The notes beneath the pieces were generated by a model. That model ran no database searches. It saw only the letters and a list, made by a program, of their open reading frames with translations, and had not been told where the DNA came from. From contig JAUNGB010000039.1 in assembly GCA_030524715.1 (NCBI GenBank), positions 1 through 45,908 of the forward strand: DNA of 45,908 nucleotides. Reading direction: 5' to 3'. Positions 27,344 to 36,833 of the stretch are shown here, piece after piece. A program made the position numbers and the translations under genes. How positions within the stretch are numbered: position 1 is the first letter of the stretch; each line of letters begins with the position of its first letter. This DNA comes from Eubacteriales bacterium (GTDB lineage: Bacteria > Bacillota > Clostridia > Lachnospirales > Lachnospiraceae).

Positions 27344-27394
27344 GAAAATACTTGTCAAACATACCTGTAAATCTTGCAGGAGGACAGAAGGGAA

Positions 27395-28276
27395 ATGCAG
27401 AGGACTTTGACTTACAGAATTACGGAGAAAGACTGCGGAACTGAAATTATTCAGTTTCTGCGGGAAAAGGGATTTTCCAGGCGTCTCTTATCCGGTATGA
27501 AGGCCGATAAAGGAGCGATTATTCTGAACGGGGAACGGGGCTTCGGCCATACAGCATTAAAAGAAGGAGATGTTCTTAAGGTTCGGGTTTTGGAGACAGA
27601 ATGCTCAGAGAACATACTTCCTGTGGAAATGAAGCTGGATATTCTTTATGAGGATGAAGATATCCTTGTCATAAATAAGCCCGCGGACATGCCCATCCAC
27701 CCTTCTATAGGGAACTATGAAAACACTCTGGCAAACGGAGTCGCCTATTATTACCGGCAGCAGAGAAAGCCTTTTGTTTATCGATGCATCAACCGCCTTG
27801 ACAGGGATACTACCGGAGGACTGATTCTTGCCAAAAATGCCCTGAGCGCGGCAATCCTTTCCACCCAGATGAAAAACCGCCAAATACGCCGGACTTATCT
27901 GGCGGTTCTGGAAGGTATCCTTCCCGAAAAAGGAACAATTTCCGTTCCGATCGCAAGGATGAAAGGCTCCGCCATTGAACGGGAAGTCAATTTTGAAACA
28001 GGGGAGCCTGCGGTAACCCACTATGAACGGCTGGCGTTCCGTAACGGGCATTCTCTTGCGGAGCTTCATCTGGAAACAGGCCGTACCCATCAGATCCGGG
28101 TACATATGAAATATCTGGGCTTTCCTCTGCCGGGAGACTATCTGTACCACCCTGTTTATGACCGTATCGGACGGCAGGCGTTACATTCCTACCAATTGGA
28201 ATTTATCCATCCGGTTACAGAAGAACCGCTCCTTTTCACCGCGCCCGTGCCGGAAGATTTCCGCAACGCCTTCTGA
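27395..28276 (+). CDS. RluA-family pseudouridine synthase
   Basis: 293 residues from the ATG at 27395; an in-frame TTG at 27374 is possible but the ATG has GAAGGGAA just before it. An S4-like N-terminal domain (RLLSGMKADKGAIILNG) is followed by the catalytic domain with the Asp-bearing motif INRLDRDTTGGLILAKNA and the C-terminal HLETGRTHQIRVHMKYLG. It isomerises uridines in rRNA or tRNA; which position is unknown. It follows the ABC-F gene on the same strand. Confidence 0.92.
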   Translation: MQRTLTYRITEKDCGTEIIQFLREKGFSRRLLSGMKADKGAIILNGERGFGHTALKEGDVLKVRVLETECSENILPVEMKLDILYEDEDILVINKPADMPIHPSIGNYENTLANGVAYYYRQQRKPFVYRCINRLDRDTTGGLILAKNALSAAILSTQMKNRQIRRTYLAVLEGILPEKGTISVPIARMKGSAIEREVNFETGEPAVTHYERLAFRNGHSLAELHLETGRTHQIRVHMKYLGFPLPGDYLYHPVYDRIGRQALHSYQLEFIHPVTEEPLLFTAPVPEDFRNAF

Positions 28277-29562: not shown

Positions 29563-29651
29563 GCTTCTTGCACTGTTTTGAACGCAGATAAGCATTCCCC
29601 CGCTTCAAGTACGCAGAGCACTAAGCGGCGGGTATGAAGGAGGATTTACAT

Positions 29652-31004
29652 ATGAGGCAGAATTCTGATGCCGGAAATCAGATCATTGAGGGGACCATCT
29701 GGAAACAGTTGCTCTTCTTTTTCTTTCCGATTTTGCTCGGCACTTTTTTTCAGCAATTTTATAACACCATCGATATGGTCATTGTGGGACGTTTTGTGGG
29801 AAAGGAAGCCCTTGCCAGCGTAGGCGGCTCCGCCGGGCAGATCGTAAATCTGGTGGTGGGCTTTTTTACCGGGCTTTCCGCAGGCGCGGGCGTGATCATC
29901 TCCCAGTTTTACGGTGCAAAGGATGCCAGAAGCCTGAATGCGGCCATCCATACCGCCTACGCCTTCTCTCTGGCGGGGAGCGTGATCTTTATGATCCCGG
30001 GGCTTCTGCTCTCTTTTTCTGTCCTGGAGACGATGAACACCCCGGCGGAATTACTGGAAAGCTCCGCCGCCTATCTGAAGATTTATTTCGGCGGCATTGT
30101 TTTTGTTTTTATTTATAATATAGGCTCAGGAATCCTCCGTGCCCTTGGCGATTCCAAACGGCCCCTTTACTATCTGATCATCTGCTCCCTTTTGAATGTG
30201 GTTCTGGATCTGATCATGGTTCTGGCTCTGGGGCTTGGAGTTGCAGGAGTTGCCATTGCCACTGTGATCGCCCAGGCATTCAGCGCCGGACTGGTCACAA
30301 GGGCCTTGATGAAGCCCGGCAATCTCTACCAATTAAAGCTTCGTCACATCCGCTTTCATCCAAGGGTGCTGAAATCCCAGCTCTACGTGGGACTTCCCGG
30401 CGGCTTTCAGTCTGTCATGTACAGTCTGTCCAATATTATTATCCAGTCGGCTGTCAATGTCTACGGTACGGATACCACGGCGGCATGGGCGGCGTATGGA
30501 AAGCTGGACGCGCTTTTCTGGATGATCAGCGGGGCGTTCGGCGTTTCCATCACAACCTTTGTAGGCCAGAATTACGGCGCCGGAAAATACGACCGTATCG
30601 AAAAAAGCGTCCGCATCTGTCTTGCCATGGACTGTGTTGTTTCTATCTTTATAGCCGGATTTTTGATTTTGTTCCGCAGCCCGCTGTTTGGCATCTTCAC
30701 CAGCGACAGCGAGGTTGTCCGGATCGGCTCCGATATGCTGAAAACCATCACTCCGTGCTATGTGGTATTTATATTTATTGAGATATATTCCAGCGCGCTT
30801 CGCGGCTTAAGCGACGTAATCATCCCCACGATTCTGACCCTGTGCGGAGTATGCCTCTTAAGGATCGCATGGATTTTTGTGGTAGTTCCCATAAAACCTT
30901 CCATCCATACCGTCATTCTCAGCTATCCGGTCACCTGGATCACGACTTCTGTTCTGTTCATCATTTACTATCAGTACAGAAAGCGCAGGCTCTGGCCATC
31001 GTAA
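29652..31004 (+). CDS. MATE family efflux transporter
   Basis: 450 residues from the ATG at 29652; AAGGAGG lies eight bases upstream, whereas the ATG at 29634 lies before it. Twelve hydrophobic segments in two six-helix halves; the N-terminal helix carries FFFPILLGTFFQQFYNTIDMVIVGRFVG, read here as the typical first helix of the MATE family in two parts. It should exchange Na+ or H+ for organic cations or drugs. It stands alone with its own promoter and a terminator. Confidence 0.92.
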   Translation: MRQNSDAGNQIIEGTIWKQLLFFFFPILLGTFFQQFYNTIDMVIVGRFVGKEALASVGGSAGQIVNLVVGFFTGLSAGAGVIISQFYGAKDARSLNAAIHTAYAFSLAGSVIFMIPGLLLSFSVLETMNTPAELLESSAAYLKIYFGGIVFVFIYNIGSGILRALGDSKRPLYYLIICSLLNVVLDLIMVLALGLGVAGVAIATVIAQAFSAGLVTRALMKPGNLYQLKLRHIRFHPRVLKSQLYVGLPGGFQSVMYSLSNIIIQSAVNVYGTDTTAAWAAYGKLDALFWMISGAFGVSITTFVGQNYGAGKYDRIEKSVRICLAMDCVVSIFIAGFLILFRSPLFGIFTSDSEVVRIGSDMLKTITPCYVVFIFIEIYSSALRGLSDVIIPTILTLCGVCLLRIAWIFVVVPIKPSIHTVILSYPVTWITTSVLFIIYYQYRKRRLWPS

Positions 31005-31005
31005 A

Positions 31006-31042
31006 AAGAGCGCCGTCAGACATCACGGCGGCGTTCTTTTTC
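31006..31042 (+). terminator. Terminator of the MATE gene
   Basis: CGCCGT / ACGGCG stem with flanking partial pairing, then GTTCTTTTT. It lies just after the stop. Confidence 0.65.
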
Positions 31043-31107: not shown

Positions 31108-31518
31108 TTAATAGATAAACTTTCTGATCCAAAGGTGGTTCTGGCCATGCTTATATTCATAGGCCAGTTCATCCATACTTTTTTTCACCATATAGATGCC
31201 CAGCCCGCCCACAGGCCTTTCTTCTGCCGGGAGCGTAACATCCGCATCCTCTTTTTCCAGGGGATTAAAGGGAACTCCGCTGTCGATAAATTCCAGTTCC
31301 ACCTTCTTCGGCTCTTCCTTGATATCGCATCGGACCGTTACCTGCCCCACTTCCGGAGCATAGGCATAATGGGCAATATTTACATAGATTTCTTCCACAG
31401 CAATTCCGATCTGCATCATAAGCTTAAAGGAACAGTCGGCCGCTTCCAGCTCTGCCTCTATAAATTCCCGGACTTTATCCAAATTTTCCAGTGTTGCCTC
31501 CAAAATCAGTTCTTTCAT
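31108..31518 (-). CDS. RsbW/SpoIIAB-type ATP-binding protein
   Basis: 136 residues, a stand-alone GHKL ATPase domain. N-box EEIYVNIAH has the Mg-binding Asn at residue 47 and His 50, G1 is DSGVPFNPL (79-87) and G2 GGLGIYMVKK (104-113). In the family it is a Ser/Thr kinase that acts on a STAS protein or binds a sigma factor; neither is encoded here. It is the last gene of a five-gene minus-strand operon, 58 bp after the phosphatase. Its partner may be elsewhere in the genome, or the operon works differently. Confidence 0.88.
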   Translation of the reverse strand: MKELILEATLENLDKVREFIEAELEAADCSFKLMMQIGIAVEEIYVNIAHYAYAPEVGQVTVRCDIKEEPKKVELEFIDSGVPFNPLEKEDADVTLPAEERPVGGLGIYMVKKSMDELAYEYKHGQNHLWIRKFIY

Positions 31519-31576
31519 AACTACAATCCTTTCATTCTAGGAGGAATCCGCTTTCTTTATGCGTTTCTTCTCCCTG

Positions 31577-33259
31577 CTATATGGACTTGATTTTAACGGC
31601 CAGCATGGTAATATCATCAAACTGGGGCGCTTCTCCATTAAAAATATCGATATCCTCTTTCACGGCCTTTAATAACTGCTCCGGTGAAGCGTCCGGTTCT
31701 TTATTTAAGGACTGCAGCATTCGCTCCGTCCCATAAAGCTCTTCCTCAGAATTTGTCGCCTCGGGCACGCCGTCCGTATAAACAAATATCGTATCTCCCA
31801 CATTCAATAGAATATCATATTCCCGGTAACGGCTTCCTTCCATTCCTGCAAGTACGAGGCCATGTCTGTCTTTCATCAGTTCAAACGCCCCGCCTGCCCT
31901 TCTGATAGCCGGATATTCATGTCCTGCATTGGCCGCCGTCATTTTTCCGGTGGATATTTCATAAATGCCAAGCCATACCGTCACAAACATTTCCGCGTCG
32001 TTATTCTCGCACAATTGATTGTTTACCGTTTCCAGGATCTCCTTGGGAGACGCCCCTGTCAACGCCTTATTCTTTATCAGGGTTTTGGCGATGACCATGA
32101 ATAGAGAAGCCGGAACTCCCTTTCCGGATACGTCCGCGATCACCAGCGCAAGATGGTCGTTATCAACCAGAAAGAAATCATAGAAATCCCCTCCCACTTC
32201 CTTTGCCGGGTTCATGGAAGCATAGATTTCAAACTCATCCCTATCCGGAAACGGCGGAAAAATGCTCGGCAGCATAGACGCCTGAATATCGGTTGCAACA
32301 GAAAGCTCCGCTCCGATCCGTTCTTTTTCTGATGTTGCTTTTACCAGGTTATCGATATAGACCGTAATATCCTGCTCCATCTGCGCAAAAACAGTGCTGA
32401 GGTTTTCCAATTCGTCTCCGGTATGTATATCCAGTTTTTGGAAAACGGATTCTTCTTTAAGCGAAAGTCCCCTTTCCTTTTCTTTCACATAGCAGGAGGC
32501 CGCGCCAGCCAGCTTGTTGATGGGATTAATGATCGTTTTATTAATGACACGTATCGCCAGAAAAATAACGATCAGAATAAATATAACCAAAAAGAATATC
32601 TGATAGCGGAGATAATCATGCCGGTCCTGCATCACCTGATTCATGTCAATATCCACCATCGCATAAGCAATGACATTCCCGTCCGTCCCTACGAAGGCCG
32701 CGCCTGCGGAACAAAGCCATCCGAACTCTTCTGTTTTCGTGATATATGCAGGGAATCCACCCTCTGGATCCTGAAAGACACCGTAATTCTGCTCATAAAT
32801 GATATCCCATGTTCCGGCAGGACATGCGGTTTCTGACTGATCCGCATCAATAATATAGACGCAGGTTTTAGAATCCGGATCTACATAGATGATATACAGG
32901 GATTTTACCTCATTTGCCTTTTTCACTCCGTCCAGCGTTTCATACAATTCCTGATATTCTGTGTCCTTGATTTTGTCATATTCCGCTAAATATGCTTCTT
33001 CCTGCCCGGCGTCCTCCCATACGGGAGCCGGATTCTGAAGATAGATCTCTGCCACGCCTTCTACATATCGCTGGATCTGCCTGTGATCCACAACAGATAC
33101 TGTGGTCTTTGCCACGTTCATTGCCAGATTGCGGTAGTGCTCATCCATGGTCCTTGCATAAATATTATAACTGATCGATGTCATTCCTGTTGTCAACAGT
33201 ATTACAATAAATAATATCAGTAAAACTGACTTTTTCCGAATAGAAAATCTGACTTTCAT
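31577..33259 (-). CDS. Membrane RsbU/SpoIIE-type PP2C phosphatase with sensor domain
   Basis: 560 residues. Helix at about 12-32, extracytoplasmic region about 33-215, second helix about 222-243 (FFLVIFILIVIFLAIRV), HAMP-like region to about 300, then a SpoIIE-type PP2C domain about 335-560. Metal-site motifs are present: GGDFYDFF, VIADVSGKGVPASLFM, VYTDGVPEATN and FDDITMLAV. It should remove phosphate from a protein in response to an outside signal. The sensor part (WDIIYEQNYGVF, FGWLCSAGAAFVGTDG) looks Cache-like, inferred. It follows the MATE fusion gene by 21 bp. Confidence 0.9.
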   Translation of the reverse strand: MKVRFSIRKKSVLLILFIVILLTTGMTSISYNIYARTMDEHYRNLAMNVAKTTVSVVDHRQIQRYVEGVAEIYLQNPAPVWEDAGQEEAYLAEYDKIKDTEYQELYETLDGVKKANEVKSLYIIYVDPDSKTCVYIIDADQSETACPAGTWDIIYEQNYGVFQDPEGGFPAYITKTEEFGWLCSAGAAFVGTDGNVIAYAMVDIDMNQVMQDRHDYLRYQIFFLVIFILIVIFLAIRVINKTIINPINKLAGAASCYVKEKERGLSLKEESVFQKLDIHTGDELENLSTVFAQMEQDITVYIDNLVKATSEKERIGAELSVATDIQASMLPSIFPPFPDRDEFEIYASMNPAKEVGGDFYDFFLVDNDHLALVIADVSGKGVPASLFMVIAKTLIKNKALTGASPKEILETVNNQLCENNDAEMFVTVWLGIYEISTGKMTAANAGHEYPAIRRAGGAFELMKDRHGLVLAGMEGSRYREYDILLNVGDTIFVYTDGVPEATNSEEELYGTERMLQSLNKEPDASPEQLLKAVKEDIDIFNGEAPQFDDITMLAVKIKSI

Positions 33260-33280
33260 AGTCTTCTGCCCTCGTATGTA

Positions 33281-35020
33281 TTATATTCTGACAACCAGCG
33301 TATTAAATCCCTGATACCTGCGGTAAGAAAAATCCCTTGCCTTTTCTTTGATCACCATAATTCCCAGAGCATCTGCATTGAAGTCTTCTTCACTTCCCGC
33401 CTTTCCGCTGTCCATGCTGAACGGGTTAAAGGAAACGGCATCATCACGGATATGCAGTTCAAAGCTCCCGTCCTGTTCTGCGATCAAGGTTATCTGGATA
33501 TACCCTTCGTTCTTCCCAAAGCCCCAGGTCAGGATGGCCATACACAACTCCTCTATGGCCAGATTTATGAAAAACTGCTGTTTTATTGTACTTTCCCATT
33601 TTCCGCAGAAATCCCCAGCTTCCTTAAGAAGCTGCTGCATATCCTCATCCTTGCTGCGTATTGTTTTCGTATAGACTCTTCCCTCGTCGGCATTTATTCC
33701 CTGAGTCAGGAAACACTTTCGTATCAGCAGCGCGGCAATCAGAGAAATCAGCTCCGTCAACGGGAATACAAACCAGAAATATTCCGTTCCCGTAAAAGAA
33801 AACAACACCGTAAGCGGAATCAAAACCGCGGCTCCCCTGAGAAACGCTATGGTAAACGCGCTTTTTTCCTGACTGCTTGCCTGAAAATAGCTTTCCAGTA
33901 TCATACTGATCCCCGCAATGACAGCGCTGGGCGCGTAAATTCTAAGGGCATGTCTTCCAAGACGCAGCGCCTCGCCGCTTCTGATCCCCAGCAGCATACA
34001 GACCGCATCCGGAAAAGCCATTACAAGCGCCGCCGCCAGCCCTCCGATCACTGTGCCCCATATCAGCCCTGTTTCTAAGGTTTTCCGGCATCCTTCCTGA
34101 TTCCTCTCACCAGAGTAATTGCTCACAAGAGGCTGCGCGGCTTTTGCCACTCCGTCATACAGATACAGCAGCAAAAAAGAAGTACTCTGTATCATCTCGA
34201 ATACCGCCACCGGGGCGCTTCCTCCAAGTCTCATCAGCATACGGTTCGCCGTCAGAATGAAGATCATAGAGAAAAAGTATTGGGACGAGGTAGATAATCC
34301 GACCCTTATACATTCTCCCAGTCCTTCCGCCGATGGACGGAGGGGAAGCATGACAAGGCAGCTCTTATTGCGGTACATTCCCCAAAGATAGATGCTGACA
34401 GACACAATAAGCCCCGCCAGCGTCGCCCATGCCGCTCCTTTTACCCCCATACGCATTCCCAGGACCAGAATAATATTAAGGGAAATATCCGTAAGGTTCC
34501 CCGCCGTAAAACCAAAGCCCGCCAGCTTTTCCTGGTCGTCGCTGCGGAGATAATAATTTAAAATATAAGAAATAAAAAAAAGAGGCGTACCTGAAATAAT
34601 AATCTGTATATAAGTACGGCTTGCCTGAAACAGTTCTTTGTCATCAGGCGCAGCGCCCAGCATCTCCAATATGGGAGCTAAAAAAAGATTCCCCAATACT
34701 GCCAAAGCGATGCCAAAGAATACTGCCGTCAGGATAACGCCCTGAAATCCGGCGGCAGCCTTCTCTTTTTCCCCTTTTGCCTGCAGCTTCGCATAGCGGA
34801 TAGAGCCTCCGCTTCCCAGTCCGTGCATGATAATATTGATCACCATAAAAACCGGCAGGGAAATGCTTATCGCAGCCAATCCGGTAACGCCCATACGATT
34901 GCCCACCACGATGGCGTCCGCCATATCCCCGAACGCAAGCGCTACGGCGGAAATCATGATAGGTATCAATTGCCGTATAAACATTCTGACAGTGAAATAA
35001 TCCATTGATCTACGCTTCAT
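33281..35020 (-). CDS. MATE transporter fused to a degenerate RsbW-type ATP-binding domain
   Basis: 579 residues. About 1-445 is a 12-helix MATE transporter (PIMISAVALAFGDMADAIVV near the N terminus). About 461-579 is a GHKL/RsbW-like domain. That domain is altered: at the N-box it reads EELCMAILT (Ala 495 in place of the Mg-binding Asn, Thr 498 for His), and G1 is DDAVSFNPF with Ala 528 where Gly is expected; LGIMVIKEKA keeps G2. It may therefore bind a partner or nucleotide without kinase activity. The start overlaps the DUF2156 gene by 11 bp. Such a fusion is unusual. Confidence 0.85.
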   Translation of the reverse strand: MKRRSMDYFTVRMFIRQLIPIMISAVALAFGDMADAIVVGNRMGVTGLAAISISLPVFMVINIIMHGLGSGGSIRYAKLQAKGEKEKAAAGFQGVILTAVFFGIALAVLGNLFLAPILEMLGAAPDDKELFQASRTYIQIIISGTPLFFISYILNYYLRSDDQEKLAGFGFTAGNLTDISLNIILVLGMRMGVKGAAWATLAGLIVSVSIYLWGMYRNKSCLVMLPLRPSAEGLGECIRVGLSTSSQYFFSMIFILTANRMLMRLGGSAPVAVFEMIQSTSFLLLYLYDGVAKAAQPLVSNYSGERNQEGCRKTLETGLIWGTVIGGLAAALVMAFPDAVCMLLGIRSGEALRLGRHALRIYAPSAVIAGISMILESYFQASSQEKSAFTIAFLRGAAVLIPLTVLFSFTGTEYFWFVFPLTELISLIAALLIRKCFLTQGINADEGRVYTKTIRSKDEDMQQLLKEAGDFCGKWESTIKQQFFINLAIEELCMAILTWGFGKNEGYIQITLIAEQDGSFELHIRDDAVSFNPFSMDSGKAGSEEDFNADALGIMVIKEKARDFSYRRYQGFNTLVVRI

Positions 35021-35888
35021 CCTGTTTTTTTCTCCCTGTATACATTTCCATTTGTCCCACCGGCCTCATCTGGCGTTTCATGGTACGAAGGCCCGGAATC
35101 CCCAGATCCTCTTCCGCATTGATCCATTCATACTGCTCCGGCAGACTGAGAAAAAGCTGGTGCTTTACATATACGGATAAGCCTGTGAGAAAGCTTTTCT
35201 GCTTTGCCAATGCCAGATCAAAGGTGCTATAGCTCAAGGGATAGCCCGCCGCCACAGCATAAGGTTCCTCGTCCACGTAGACCAGAATTCCCTCCACAGA
35301 CAATTCCCGTCTGTGACCCAGCAGGTTCCTGACAGCCTCTGTATCCCGGATTCCTCCCGTTCTCTCTCTGTCCCGCTCCCATAACCCGCAGATTTCCATC
35401 GCGGTATCCATGTTTTCATCGCACAGCCGTTCCCAGCGGAGCCTGTGATCATGCAAAACTCTGTTGATATGATTTCTCTGTCCGGAAAATTTTCTTCCCT
35501 GCAGCTTCTCCTGCTGTTTTCTGTCATACAGATATTCACTGTCGTTTTCACACAGCCGGATCTCAAAGCATCCGGGAAACTCCTGTTCCAAAAAGAGAGC
35601 GTCCTCACGCCTCATATAATAAAAGCAAAGCTCATCCTCTTTTATCTGACAGGAGATCCATTCTCTTACAGCCTTCCTATCTCCACAGGGAAAAAACCAT
35701 GCGTGTTCCCCGCGTAAACCATAAGACACAGAAAAAAAATCCTTTTCCAGACAGATTCCAAGCTTCATTTCTTCTTTCCAGATATACAGAGAGGAAAACC
35801 CATGGGAAGCAGCCTCATGACCTGCTTTCATACGCAGGCTCTCCACCTGGTCTTTCATTGACAGCTTAATCGGTTCCAAATGACTCAT
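35010..35888 (-). CDS. DUF2156 / phosphatidylglycerol lysyltransferase-like acyltransferase
   Basis: 292 residues. The C-terminal half has the acyltransferase pattern SGQRNHINRVLHDH, then GILVYVDEEPYAVAAGYPL, FDLALAKQKSFLTGLSVYVK and EWINAEEDLGIPGLRTMK, as in the DUF2156 part of MprF-like proteins, which use aminoacyl-tRNA. No MprF membrane part is attached. It overlaps the formyltransferase stop by ATGA, so it is translated with it. Substrate unknown: a lipid, a peptide or the molecule exported by the next gene. Confidence 0.82.
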   Translation of the reverse strand: MSHLEPIKLSMKDQVESLRMKAGHEAASHGFSSLYIWKEEMKLGICLEKDFFSVSYGLRGEHAWFFPCGDRKAVREWISCQIKEDELCFYYMRREDALFLEQEFPGCFEIRLCENDSEYLYDRKQQEKLQGRKFSGQRNHINRVLHDHRLRWERLCDENMDTAMEICGLWERDRERTGGIRDTEAVRNLLGHRRELSVEGILVYVDEEPYAVAAGYPLSYSTFDLALAKQKSFLTGLSVYVKHQLFLSLPEQYEWINAEEDLGIPGLRTMKRQMRPVGQMEMYTGRKKQDEA

Positions 35889-36691
35889 AACAATCTTCTT
35901 ATCCTTTTTGCGCTGATAAAGCCCCCGTTCAGGGGAAGATTATCCGTACTCCCTTCCCCTTTATGGGCCTGGCCTTCTAATACGCCGTATTTTTCCGCTC
36001 CCGTATCATAAATACACTCATATCCGTAAAAAGCCCTTAAAATAAGATCCGCTTCCTCCGGCTTCATCCGAGGCATAATGGGAAAATCCTGTTCTTCTAC
36101 GGTTTCCCAGTATTCCCCGTCTTCCTGGGGAACGGCGTCCCGATACAGCGCGTCAAAATCAGAAACTAACCTTTTCATCATTTCCGGGAGAAGCTGCCGC
36201 TGCCTTTCCAGCAACGTCCTGTGGTTATCCCGTGGATAAACAGGAATTTCCCGCTGCAGAAGGATATCTCCCTCATCCAGCCGGTCAGTCATTTTGTGCA
36301 GTGTCACGCCGCTTTTGTCCAATCCCTTTAATATCGTCACCGGCATAGGCCATGCTCCCCGTCCTATGGGAAGCAGTGCAGGATGGATATTGATGACCGG
36401 CAGCTTGTCCGACACCGGGATTTTATAGTAATATCCTCCGCAGACGGCAAATCTGCAGCCCTCTCGATACCAGCGTTCCAGATCCTCCGGGCAAACCTTC
36501 CCTATCTTTAAAGGAATGTGGTTTCTCTCTGCAAAGGCGCATACCTCCCTGTTAAATTCTGTTTCATTGTCTGTCCGGCAGCTTACAACCTCCGCAATTT
36601 CACAGAATGAAGCCAGGACCGGAAGCGCCGGATACAGCAGATCGATCCCGATATATGCTATTTTATATGTTTTCACCGCCTTATTCTCCAT
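35885..36691 (-). CDS. Formyltransferase-like protein (Fmt/ArnA fold)
   Basis: 268 residues, shorter than a methionyl-tRNA formyltransferase. The catalytic Asn and His are in VINIHPALLPIGRGAWP and the Asp in LDEGDILLQREIPVY, so it should use 10-formyl-THF. The first gene of the operon, with AGAGG before the ATG. Because the N-terminal tRNA-binding partner domain is lacking, its target is more likely an amino group on a small molecule than Met-tRNA. Followed by a DUF2156 gene with a 4-bp overlap. Confidence 0.85.
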   Translation of the reverse strand: MENKAVKTYKIAYIGIDLLYPALPVLASFCEIAEVVSCRTDNETEFNREVCAFAERNHIPLKIGKVCPEDLERWYREGCRFAVCGGYYYKIPVSDKLPVINIHPALLPIGRGAWPMPVTILKGLDKSGVTLHKMTDRLDEGDILLQREIPVYPRDNHRTLLERQRQLLPEMMKRLVSDFDALYRDAVPQEDGEYWETVEEQDFPIMPRMKPEEADLILRAFYGYECIYDTGAEKYGVLEGQAHKGEGSTDNLPLNGGFISAKRIRRLL

Positions 36692-36797: not shown

Positions 36798-36833
36798 GTC
36801 GAATGCCCCGCAGCAAGTTGCGGGGCATTCGAC
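36798..36833 (-). terminator. 15-bp perfect inverted repeat between coaX and the formyltransferase operon
   Basis: GTCGAATGCCCCGCA / TGCGGGGCATTCGAC, 6-nt loop. It lies 28 bp after the coaX stop, in a good place for a terminator, but no clear U-tract follows on the minus strand. Confidence 0.55.

Follow-up and report, generated by a model that had tools for sequence, protein, structure and literature searches.

Five genes on one strand at positions 31108-36691

The window analyzed here is the whole stretch of 45,908 nucleotides from contig JAUNGB010000039.1 (assembly GCA_030524715.1) of a Eubacteriales bacterium (Lachnospiraceae), and our subject is a cassette of five open reading frames (ORFs) at 31108-36691, all on the minus strand. 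The genes encode a formyltransferase-like protein (Fmt), a DUF2156 protein, a MATE exporter fused to a C-terminal RsbW-like domain, an RsbU-type PP2C phosphatase, and a stand-alone RsbW-type kinase. As detailed below, this gene content recurs in other genomes, the kinase and phosphatase motifs are intact, and the domain on the MATE protein is degenerate. The features are as follows, with E values from Pfam.

35885..36691, minus strand: formyltransferase-like protein (Fmt), 268 amino acids; Formyl_trans_N 9.4e-18
35010..35888, minus strand: DUF2156 / LPG_synthase_C protein, 292 amino acids; LPG_synthase_C 8.9e-27
33281..35020, minus strand: MATE exporter plus C-terminal RsbW-like domain in one ORF, 579 amino acids; MatE 1.2e-34, HATPase_c_2 3.8e-9
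33284..33655, minus strand: the C-terminal RsbW-like domain of the MATE fusion, residues 456-578; HATPase_c_2 3.8e-9
31577..33259, minus strand: RsbU-type PP2C phosphatase, 560 amino acids; SpoIIE PP2C 1.7e-48
31108..31518, minus strand: stand-alone RsbW-type kinase, 136 amino acids; HATPase_c_2 5.8e-24
31011..31030, minus strand: terminator-like hairpin and T run just past RsbW; consensus match alone

The Fmt and DUF2156 genes overlap by 4 bp and the DUF2156 and MATE fusion genes by 11 bp, with gaps of 21 bp between the MATE fusion and RsbU and 58 bp between RsbU and RsbW. The first-pass annotation had described five overlapping or closely spaced genes on one strand with no STAS or sigma-factor gene adjoining them, and both statements were borne out. 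No STAS gene was found in the window, the two PF01740 matches of the genome lying on other contigs, and none of the genome's 10 matches to the SigB/F/G model falls on this contig.

Enzymes, exporter, and switch genes recur together

To define the named loci, we took the best 80 of 127 relatives from a contig scan with an alignment of the window's clade, all found via the MATE protein alone. A partner gene was counted if it lay no more than 6 kb from the MATE fusion and shared its strand, and loci cut by contig ends were counted as they stand. These loci include Lachnospiraceae, Oscillospiraceae, Christensenellaceae, Synergistaceae, and one Kiritimatiellia bin, and they come mostly from metagenome bins; strain names among them are Coprococcus catus (L203), Oscillibacter valericigenes (L158), and Pseudoflavonifractor phocaeensis (L201), the last with neither Fmt nor DUF2156 found. 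The L158 locus (strain An907) carries STAS, Fmt, RsbU, and RsbW, and the L203 locus DUF2156, RsbU, and RsbW. RsbU was present in 76 of the 80 named loci, Fmt in 56, DUF2156 in 54, and at least one of these two enzymes in 73. RsbW was present in 55 loci and a small STAS protein in 43, with STAS, RsbU, and RsbW together in 35. When overlapping ORFs were dropped, the counts fell to 46 for Fmt, 50 for DUF2156, 52 for RsbW, and 42 for STAS.

DUF2156 abuts or overlaps the start of the MATE gene in 39/80 named loci, and complete tight operons occur in L130 (STAS-Fmt-DUF2156-MATE-RsbU-RsbW) and, with Fmt and DUF2156 fused, in L109 (STAS-[Fmt-DUF2156]-MATE-RsbU-RsbW). In the closest relatives among the matches listed, L125 (55% identical) and L126 (53%), a nonribosomal peptide synthetase (NRPS) is followed by STAS-MATE-RsbU-RsbW-Fmt-DUF2156. 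The first-pass annotation had proposed a search for the five families in this order. Enzymes, exporter, and switch do recur together in the named loci, but their order and set vary, with Fmt fused to DUF2156 in 5/80, RsbU and RsbW forming a single protein in 24/80, and Fmt following the MATE gene in some. With STAS genes in 43 of the 80 loci, the system often includes a STAS protein.

Several variants were seen along the way. The complete cassette of L130 (and L131) carries, directly after RsbW, a STAS domain fused to an APH-type phosphotransferase (L130:12872-14053); STAS proteins of about 400 amino acids lie near several loci, the Pfam scan covering that of L130 alone. A LuxR/MalT-like regulator of 786 amino acids (L142:11042-13402) separates the MATE fusion from RsbU in its locus, and genes matching it in size occur in L144, L145, and L186, with the Pfam scan covering that of L142. 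RsbU-RsbW fusions, which place the phosphatase and the opposing kinase on one chain, are found at L112:2843-5434, L027:2098-4179, and L031:6601-9186; the last adjoins a CstA-looking gene (unscanned), and no MATE fusion was found in that stretch.

To control for chance neighborhood, we compared inner and outer flanks in the 35 of the 80 named loci that have both 9-kb flanks. Within 4 kb of the MATE fusion, RsbU was found in 34 loci, Fmt in 26, DUF2156 in 23, RsbW in 22, and STAS in 19, compared to STAS in one locus and each of the other four in none at 4.8-8.8 kb. Chance neighborhood was rejected on this comparison (RsbU 34 vs 0 of 35). None of the partners was found at nine ordinary MATE loci of the source genome, for which the flanks span just 1.5 kb. 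Across all 397 family genomes in the sample, RsbU-type PP2C proteins (PF07228 at E<=1e-38) were present in 49 of 53 fusion genomes vs 72 of 344 others (Fisher 1.6e-24, a value that common ancestry inflates). The 53 fusion genomes were called by open-frame length among the matches listed; 50 were confirmed in the locus sequence, G284, G390, and G407 stand on the match list alone, and the contig-truncated candidates G218, G259, and G393 were left out.

The RsbW-like domain of the exporter has lost ATP-site motifs

The transmembrane part of the fusion is a MATE domain by both models used (TIGR00797, 181 bits and above the cut-off of 147; MatE, 1.2e-34). In its C-terminal domain the ATP site retains Glu-Glu, while the N-box Asn is replaced by Ala, DxG by DxA, and the first GG of GGxG by DA, motifs whose roles in RsbW-type domains are known. 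As comparison rows, we used stand-alone or RsbU-fused RsbW domains picked by profile at 1e-8; the six checked ATP-site positions were intact in 80 of these 84 rows, with the remaining four gapped there, and every checked position is intact in the window's stand-alone RsbW. Among the MATE C-domains of the named loci, Glu-Glu was kept in 83/83 rows and the N-box Asn in 2/83, both of them second fusions (L159 and L189).

The same domain in a wider family survey of 71 fusions, which fall into clades A to D with the window in clade B (see below), kept the first Glu in 67/71 and the second in 71/71, and the GG doublet in 0/71. Asn was retained in 0/9 rows of clade A, 1/12 of B, 13/14 of C, and 34/36 of D, and DxG in 0/9, 0/12, 13/14, and 5/36, respectively. 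Since these motifs are lost in the window's clade, the MATE C-domain there should not be a kinase, and docking would be the simplest reading of its role. A PDB search with the C-domain profile gave no match at 0.01. In L186 (3081-4843), the MATE fusion is split into two ORFs of 168 and 405 amino acids, either a pseudogene or a sequencing error.

The source genome holds intact switch parts, an orphan STAS protein, and no sigma-B above cut-off

In an alignment of 34 RsbU homologues, Asp 358, 376, 496, 548, and 549, which we take to be the metal-binding residues, are among the invariant columns. The N-terminal part of RsbU looks like a membrane sensor, with the membrane segments read by eye. HAMP was recognized in 26 of the 34 homologues and not in the window's RsbU, and Cache-type domains were found in up to three (dCache_1 in two, sCache_3_2 in one). 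Together, the membrane-sensor look and the HAMP and Cache domains of homologues suggest that the signal probably comes from outside the cell. RsbU matched the SiaA model weakly (68.6 bits against a cut-off of 700), and it alone of the genome's three PF07228 matches at 1e-10 reaches 1e-38.

The window's RsbW does not reach the NCBIfam equivalog cut-off for either the sigma-B or the sigma-F anti-sigma factor. HATPase_c_2 has 15 matches in the genome, led by a SpoIIAB-like protein (85 bits), the window's RsbW (84), and the MATE C-domain (41); the other twelve, four at 27 to 30 bits above cut-off and eight under, were taken as ordinary histidine kinases. By the cut-offs used, the clear RsbW-type kinases of this genome are the window's RsbW and the presumed SpoIIAB alone. 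A SigB/F/G family search gave 10 match rows, two of them above cut-off (SigG and SigF). As to the individual calls, SigG passes one of the two SigG model cut-offs, and SigF, scored on a fragment, falls slightly short of its own; the SigF-like gene adjoins SpoIIAA- and SpoIIAB-like genes, SigG and SigF are both far below the Sigma_B cut-off, and RpoD accounts for one weaker row, well below cut-off. Neither this search nor NCBIfam gave a sigma-B above cut-off in the genome, and on that ground we rejected a distant sigma-B as the target of the switch. As these searches turned up no sigma-B that the switch could act on, the MATE C-domain is its most evident output. The first-pass annotation had the switch acting on this domain rather than on a sigma factor; the sigma-B result agrees with that part, but the make-up it pictured has to be widened to include STAS, as the 43 loci show.

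A search of the same genome for a STAS protein, which the first-pass annotation had proposed, was fruitful. Besides a SpoIIAA-like protein, PF01740 found one orphan, on contig C161, that shares 58-61% identity with the 14 rows nearest to it in the set of cassette-locus STAS proteins and has the SSAGL motif present in 61 of 69 aligned STAS rows. Its neighbors are CstA, an SDF symporter, and a phosphorylase-like protein; a 538-amino-acid neighbor considered as a chemotaxis receptor is the SDF-type symporter. STAS proteins of this type occur in 13/41 genus genomes. The source genome is a draft assembly whose contamination is estimated at 5%, and GC content is 0.474 for the C161 stretch and 0.469 for the window. 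The C161 STAS protein may act in trans for the window's cassette.

Exporter clades are accompanied by different conjugating enzymes

When the C-domain was searched against 61 genomes (its own and relatives), eight matched and five carried the fusion, namely, G000, G031 (L027, cut by the contig start), G034 (L028), G022 (L030), and G052 (L029); the other matches were RsbW-type or RsbU-RsbW proteins. The fusion was found in 4/37 genus genomes. A profile built from these five C-domains picked up 99 of the 397 family genomes at 1e-6 and, in a wider phylum sample, 7 of 299 genomes at 1e-15, including G000 and two more of its family. The survey set comprised 71 fusions in 65 loci (60 stretches, the window, and four earlier loci), and a tree of these with one plain MATE gave clades A (9 rows), B (12, with the window), C (14), and D (36), the basal fork of clade D being not fully supported (94/91).

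Neighbors within 9 kb of the MATE fusion differed among the clades. In clade A (n=9), we counted RsbU 8, RsbW 8, STAS 5, GH3 5, and NRPS 1; in clade B (n=12), RsbU 11, Fmt 9, DUF2156 8, RsbW 7, and STAS 5; in clade C (n=14), NRPS 12, STAS 6, RsbU 4, RsbW 3, and GH3 2; and in clade D (n=36), RsbU 7, NRPS 7, STAS 6, RsbW 4, and GH3 3. L099 and L118 each contain fusions of both clade A and clade C, so that certain genes enter the counts of both clades. Pfam scans of examples recognized GH3 in L029 and L112, fused Fmt and LPG_synthase_C in L109, NRPS ending in an NAD_binding_4 reductase in L065, L071, and L126, ATP-grasp in L092 and L116, and GNAT in L093 and L096. An enzyme was assigned on the same strand and no more than 3 kb away for 32 of the 71 fusions. 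In these, enzyme class tracks the MATE tree, changing 4 times, whereas 300 shuffles averaged 14.5 changes and never came down to 4. The Fmt/DUF2156 pair is one of at least three enzyme types accompanying the MATE fusion.

Many of the neighbors scanned are proteins of other kinds. Examples are the nucleoside hydrolase of L071, the STAS-bearing sulfate permease of L086, ABC-type transport proteins in L094, the chaperonin of L113, an rRNA methylase in L123, and the C39-peptidase ABC exporter of L130. For six neighbors, Pfam gave nothing at 0.001 (L065:11186-12271, L089:11139-12137, L066:11223-15002, L132:12471-16205, L159:12497-13441, and L135:10744-13686). Clade D loci, e.g., L105 and L112, form a large set of fusions; some genomes have several of them, and two of the fusions adjoin HD-CE domain proteins.

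The window's Fmt resembles N-formyltransferases, its best solved relative being dTDP-4-amino-4,6-dideoxyglucose formyltransferase (4e-11). It is not the housekeeping methionyl-tRNA formyltransferase, since it scores 61 bits against the fmt equivalog cut-off of 201.5. The DUF2156 family in Pfam is the C-terminal domain of phosphatidylglycerol lysyltransferases, and the one solved relative that came up, 2hqy, is a conserved hypothetical protein. MprF-type aminoacyl-phosphatidylglycerol synthases combine LPG_synthase_C with a membrane flippase domain; the window's protein has LPG_synthase_C alone, across most of its 292 amino acids. Taken together, Fmt and DUF2156 here and GH3, ATP-grasp, and NRPS in sister clades point to amino-acid-derived conjugates as the likely cargo.

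The surroundings of the cassette and the coaX site in ten genus relatives

In ten chosen genus relatives, coaX is followed by a pseudouridine synthase gene with no cassette between them. In the window, the cassette, an ordinary MATE gene, and an amino acid kinase gene lie between coaX and the pseudouridine synthase gene (27374-28276), an arrangement that fits gain of the cassette by transfer. The ordinary MATE transporter gene (456 amino acids, 29634-31004) is transcribed toward the cassette, and 103 bp separate it from the stop codon of RsbW. A perfect 12-bp hairpin without a clear T run lies between coaX and the Fmt gene (36801-36830) and is not among the predictions of the terminator scan.

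A partner switch may gate the exporter

From these comparisons, we consider it reasonably probable that the cassette encodes a partner switch whose output is the MATE exporter, through a pseudokinase domain for STAS docking, and that the exporter serves exchangeable conjugating enzymes. An extracellular signal would act on the sensor part of RsbU, which would then dephosphorylate an RsbV-like STAS protein, here probably that of C161. Unphosphorylated STAS would dock on the non-kinase RsbW-like domain of the MATE protein, and docking would turn export on, with activation somewhat favored over the opposite sign. The stand-alone RsbW would compete for STAS, re-phosphorylate it, and end export. 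The cargo would be the product of Fmt and DUF2156, probably a formylated aminoacyl or acyl conjugate. Whether this extends to a whole exporter family in gut Clostridia seems to us evenly balanced: such a family would be gated post-translationally, with a pseudokinase RsbW domain sensing whether STAS is phosphorylated, in a cassette with interchangeable enzymes (Fmt-DUF2156, GH3, or NRPS-reductase), and would place metabolite release under an extracellular signal.

A number of observations weigh against the gated-exporter model. With regard to STAS, no gene lies within 6 kb in 37/80 named loci, the window also being without a local one; the STAS tree gives the C161 protein no firm position; and its type occurs in genus members without a detected fusion (e.g., G002 and G003) and was not found in G034, which carries one. 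With regard to the switch genes, RsbU stands without RsbW or STAS nearby in 19/80 named loci, some of them cut by contig ends, a switch gene lies on the same strand within 5 kb in just 29/71 survey fusions, and clade D fusions (36/71) are mostly without local switch genes. In the source genome, the two other PF07228 matches at 1e-10 and seven weak sigma-family rows carry no assignment. Finally, common ancestry affects the Fisher values, and the Fisher value of 4e-6 for Asn loss vs local RsbW, obtained as a simple table, was not matched by an independent-pairs test (5 pairs, not significant).

The unassigned sigma-family rows also bear on a different explanation, in which RsbU, RsbW, and STAS control transcription via an unrecognized sigma factor or other regulator, while the MATE C-domain tunes the switch as a decoy or STAS sink. 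Partner switches mostly end in sigma factors or transcription, as far as the available text of PMC8256260 and PMC11418112 goes, and the LuxR/MalT-like regulator of L142 would suit such an output. However, the genome has no sigma-B above cut-off, none of the 10 family matches is on the window's contig, and the RsbW-like domain is built into the exporter, with Glu-Glu invariant in the named set while the ATP motifs decay. We therefore regard transcriptional control as unlikely. The decay of these motifs also bears on the idea that the C-domain, tethered to the membrane, phosphorylates STAS in its own right or else senses nucleotides, with the free RsbW as its heterodimer partner. RsbW-type kinases work as dimers, and clade C keeps Asn and DxG in 13/14 rows and clade D Asn in 34/36, which speaks for this idea; the window's own clade, however, keeps Asn in 1/12 and DxG in 0/12, and the GG doublet is lost in 71/71, which makes this explanation quite improbable.

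It is also conceivable that the genes are a co-inherited island sharing a promoter, with no action of the switch on the pump. This would suit the accessory pattern, with ten genus relatives lacking the cassette at coaX and the fusion in 4/37 genus genomes, but it accounts neither for the RsbW-like domain on the pump, nor for the invariance of Glu-Glu amid ATP-motif decay, nor for the genome-wide co-occurrence of the fusion with RsbU-type phosphatases. We hold mere co-inheritance to be very improbable.

Comparison with known systems

Partner switching is known mainly for sigma-factor control, and since the parts of the switch are already known, what is new in the gated-exporter model is its output alone. 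Among the matches listed in the openly licensed PMC literature, we found no description of a MATE-RsbW fusion, and the whole word MATE does not occur in the available part of PMC10663231. The accessible text of PMC8256260, a review of STAS-only proteins, covers several systems with unknown targets and names no transporter as a target. A read-out domain joined to a transporter would be a directly testable target and a new route to control small-molecule secretion.

Gut Clostridia NRPS-reductase clusters, which make peptide aldehydes, share with the cassettes the use of amino-acid-conjugating enzymes. Clade C fusions adjoin NRPS genes, with a terminal reductase in both clade C examples scanned (L065 and L071), but the window has Fmt and DUF2156 instead. 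The oaa cluster (fatty acid amide) is comparable in its enzymes and differs from the window in the same respect; in the available part of its description, the terms transporter and anti-sigma are not present (PMC13142362). Since this type of exporter is found with conjugating enzymes of three unrelated kinds, it offers a handle for finding unrecognized gut metabolite clusters, including ones without NRPS genes, which standard searches may overlook.

SiaC is a STAS-type protein. In SiaABCD and SypA/SypE, as in our model, a STAS protein acts on a non-sigma target, a point that the accessible text of PMC8256260 makes for SypA/SypE; the target here would instead be an exporter, and the fused part is the docking (RsbW-like) side. 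Compared to the RsbU-RsbV-RsbW/sigma-B system of Bacillus subtilis, the cassette is alike in its sensor PP2C phosphatase, STAS substrate, and GHKL-type kinase, insofar as the available sections of PMC11418112 describe them, but no sigma-B was found here, the apparent output is a MATE protein with an RsbW-like domain, and STAS is non-local. SulP/SLC26 transporters with a STAS domain, according to the available text of PMC8256260, likewise carry a partner-switch-type domain on a transporter. There, the transporter bears the STAS side; here, it is the RsbW side that is carried, on a MATE protein, with the genes for kinase and phosphatase adjacent.

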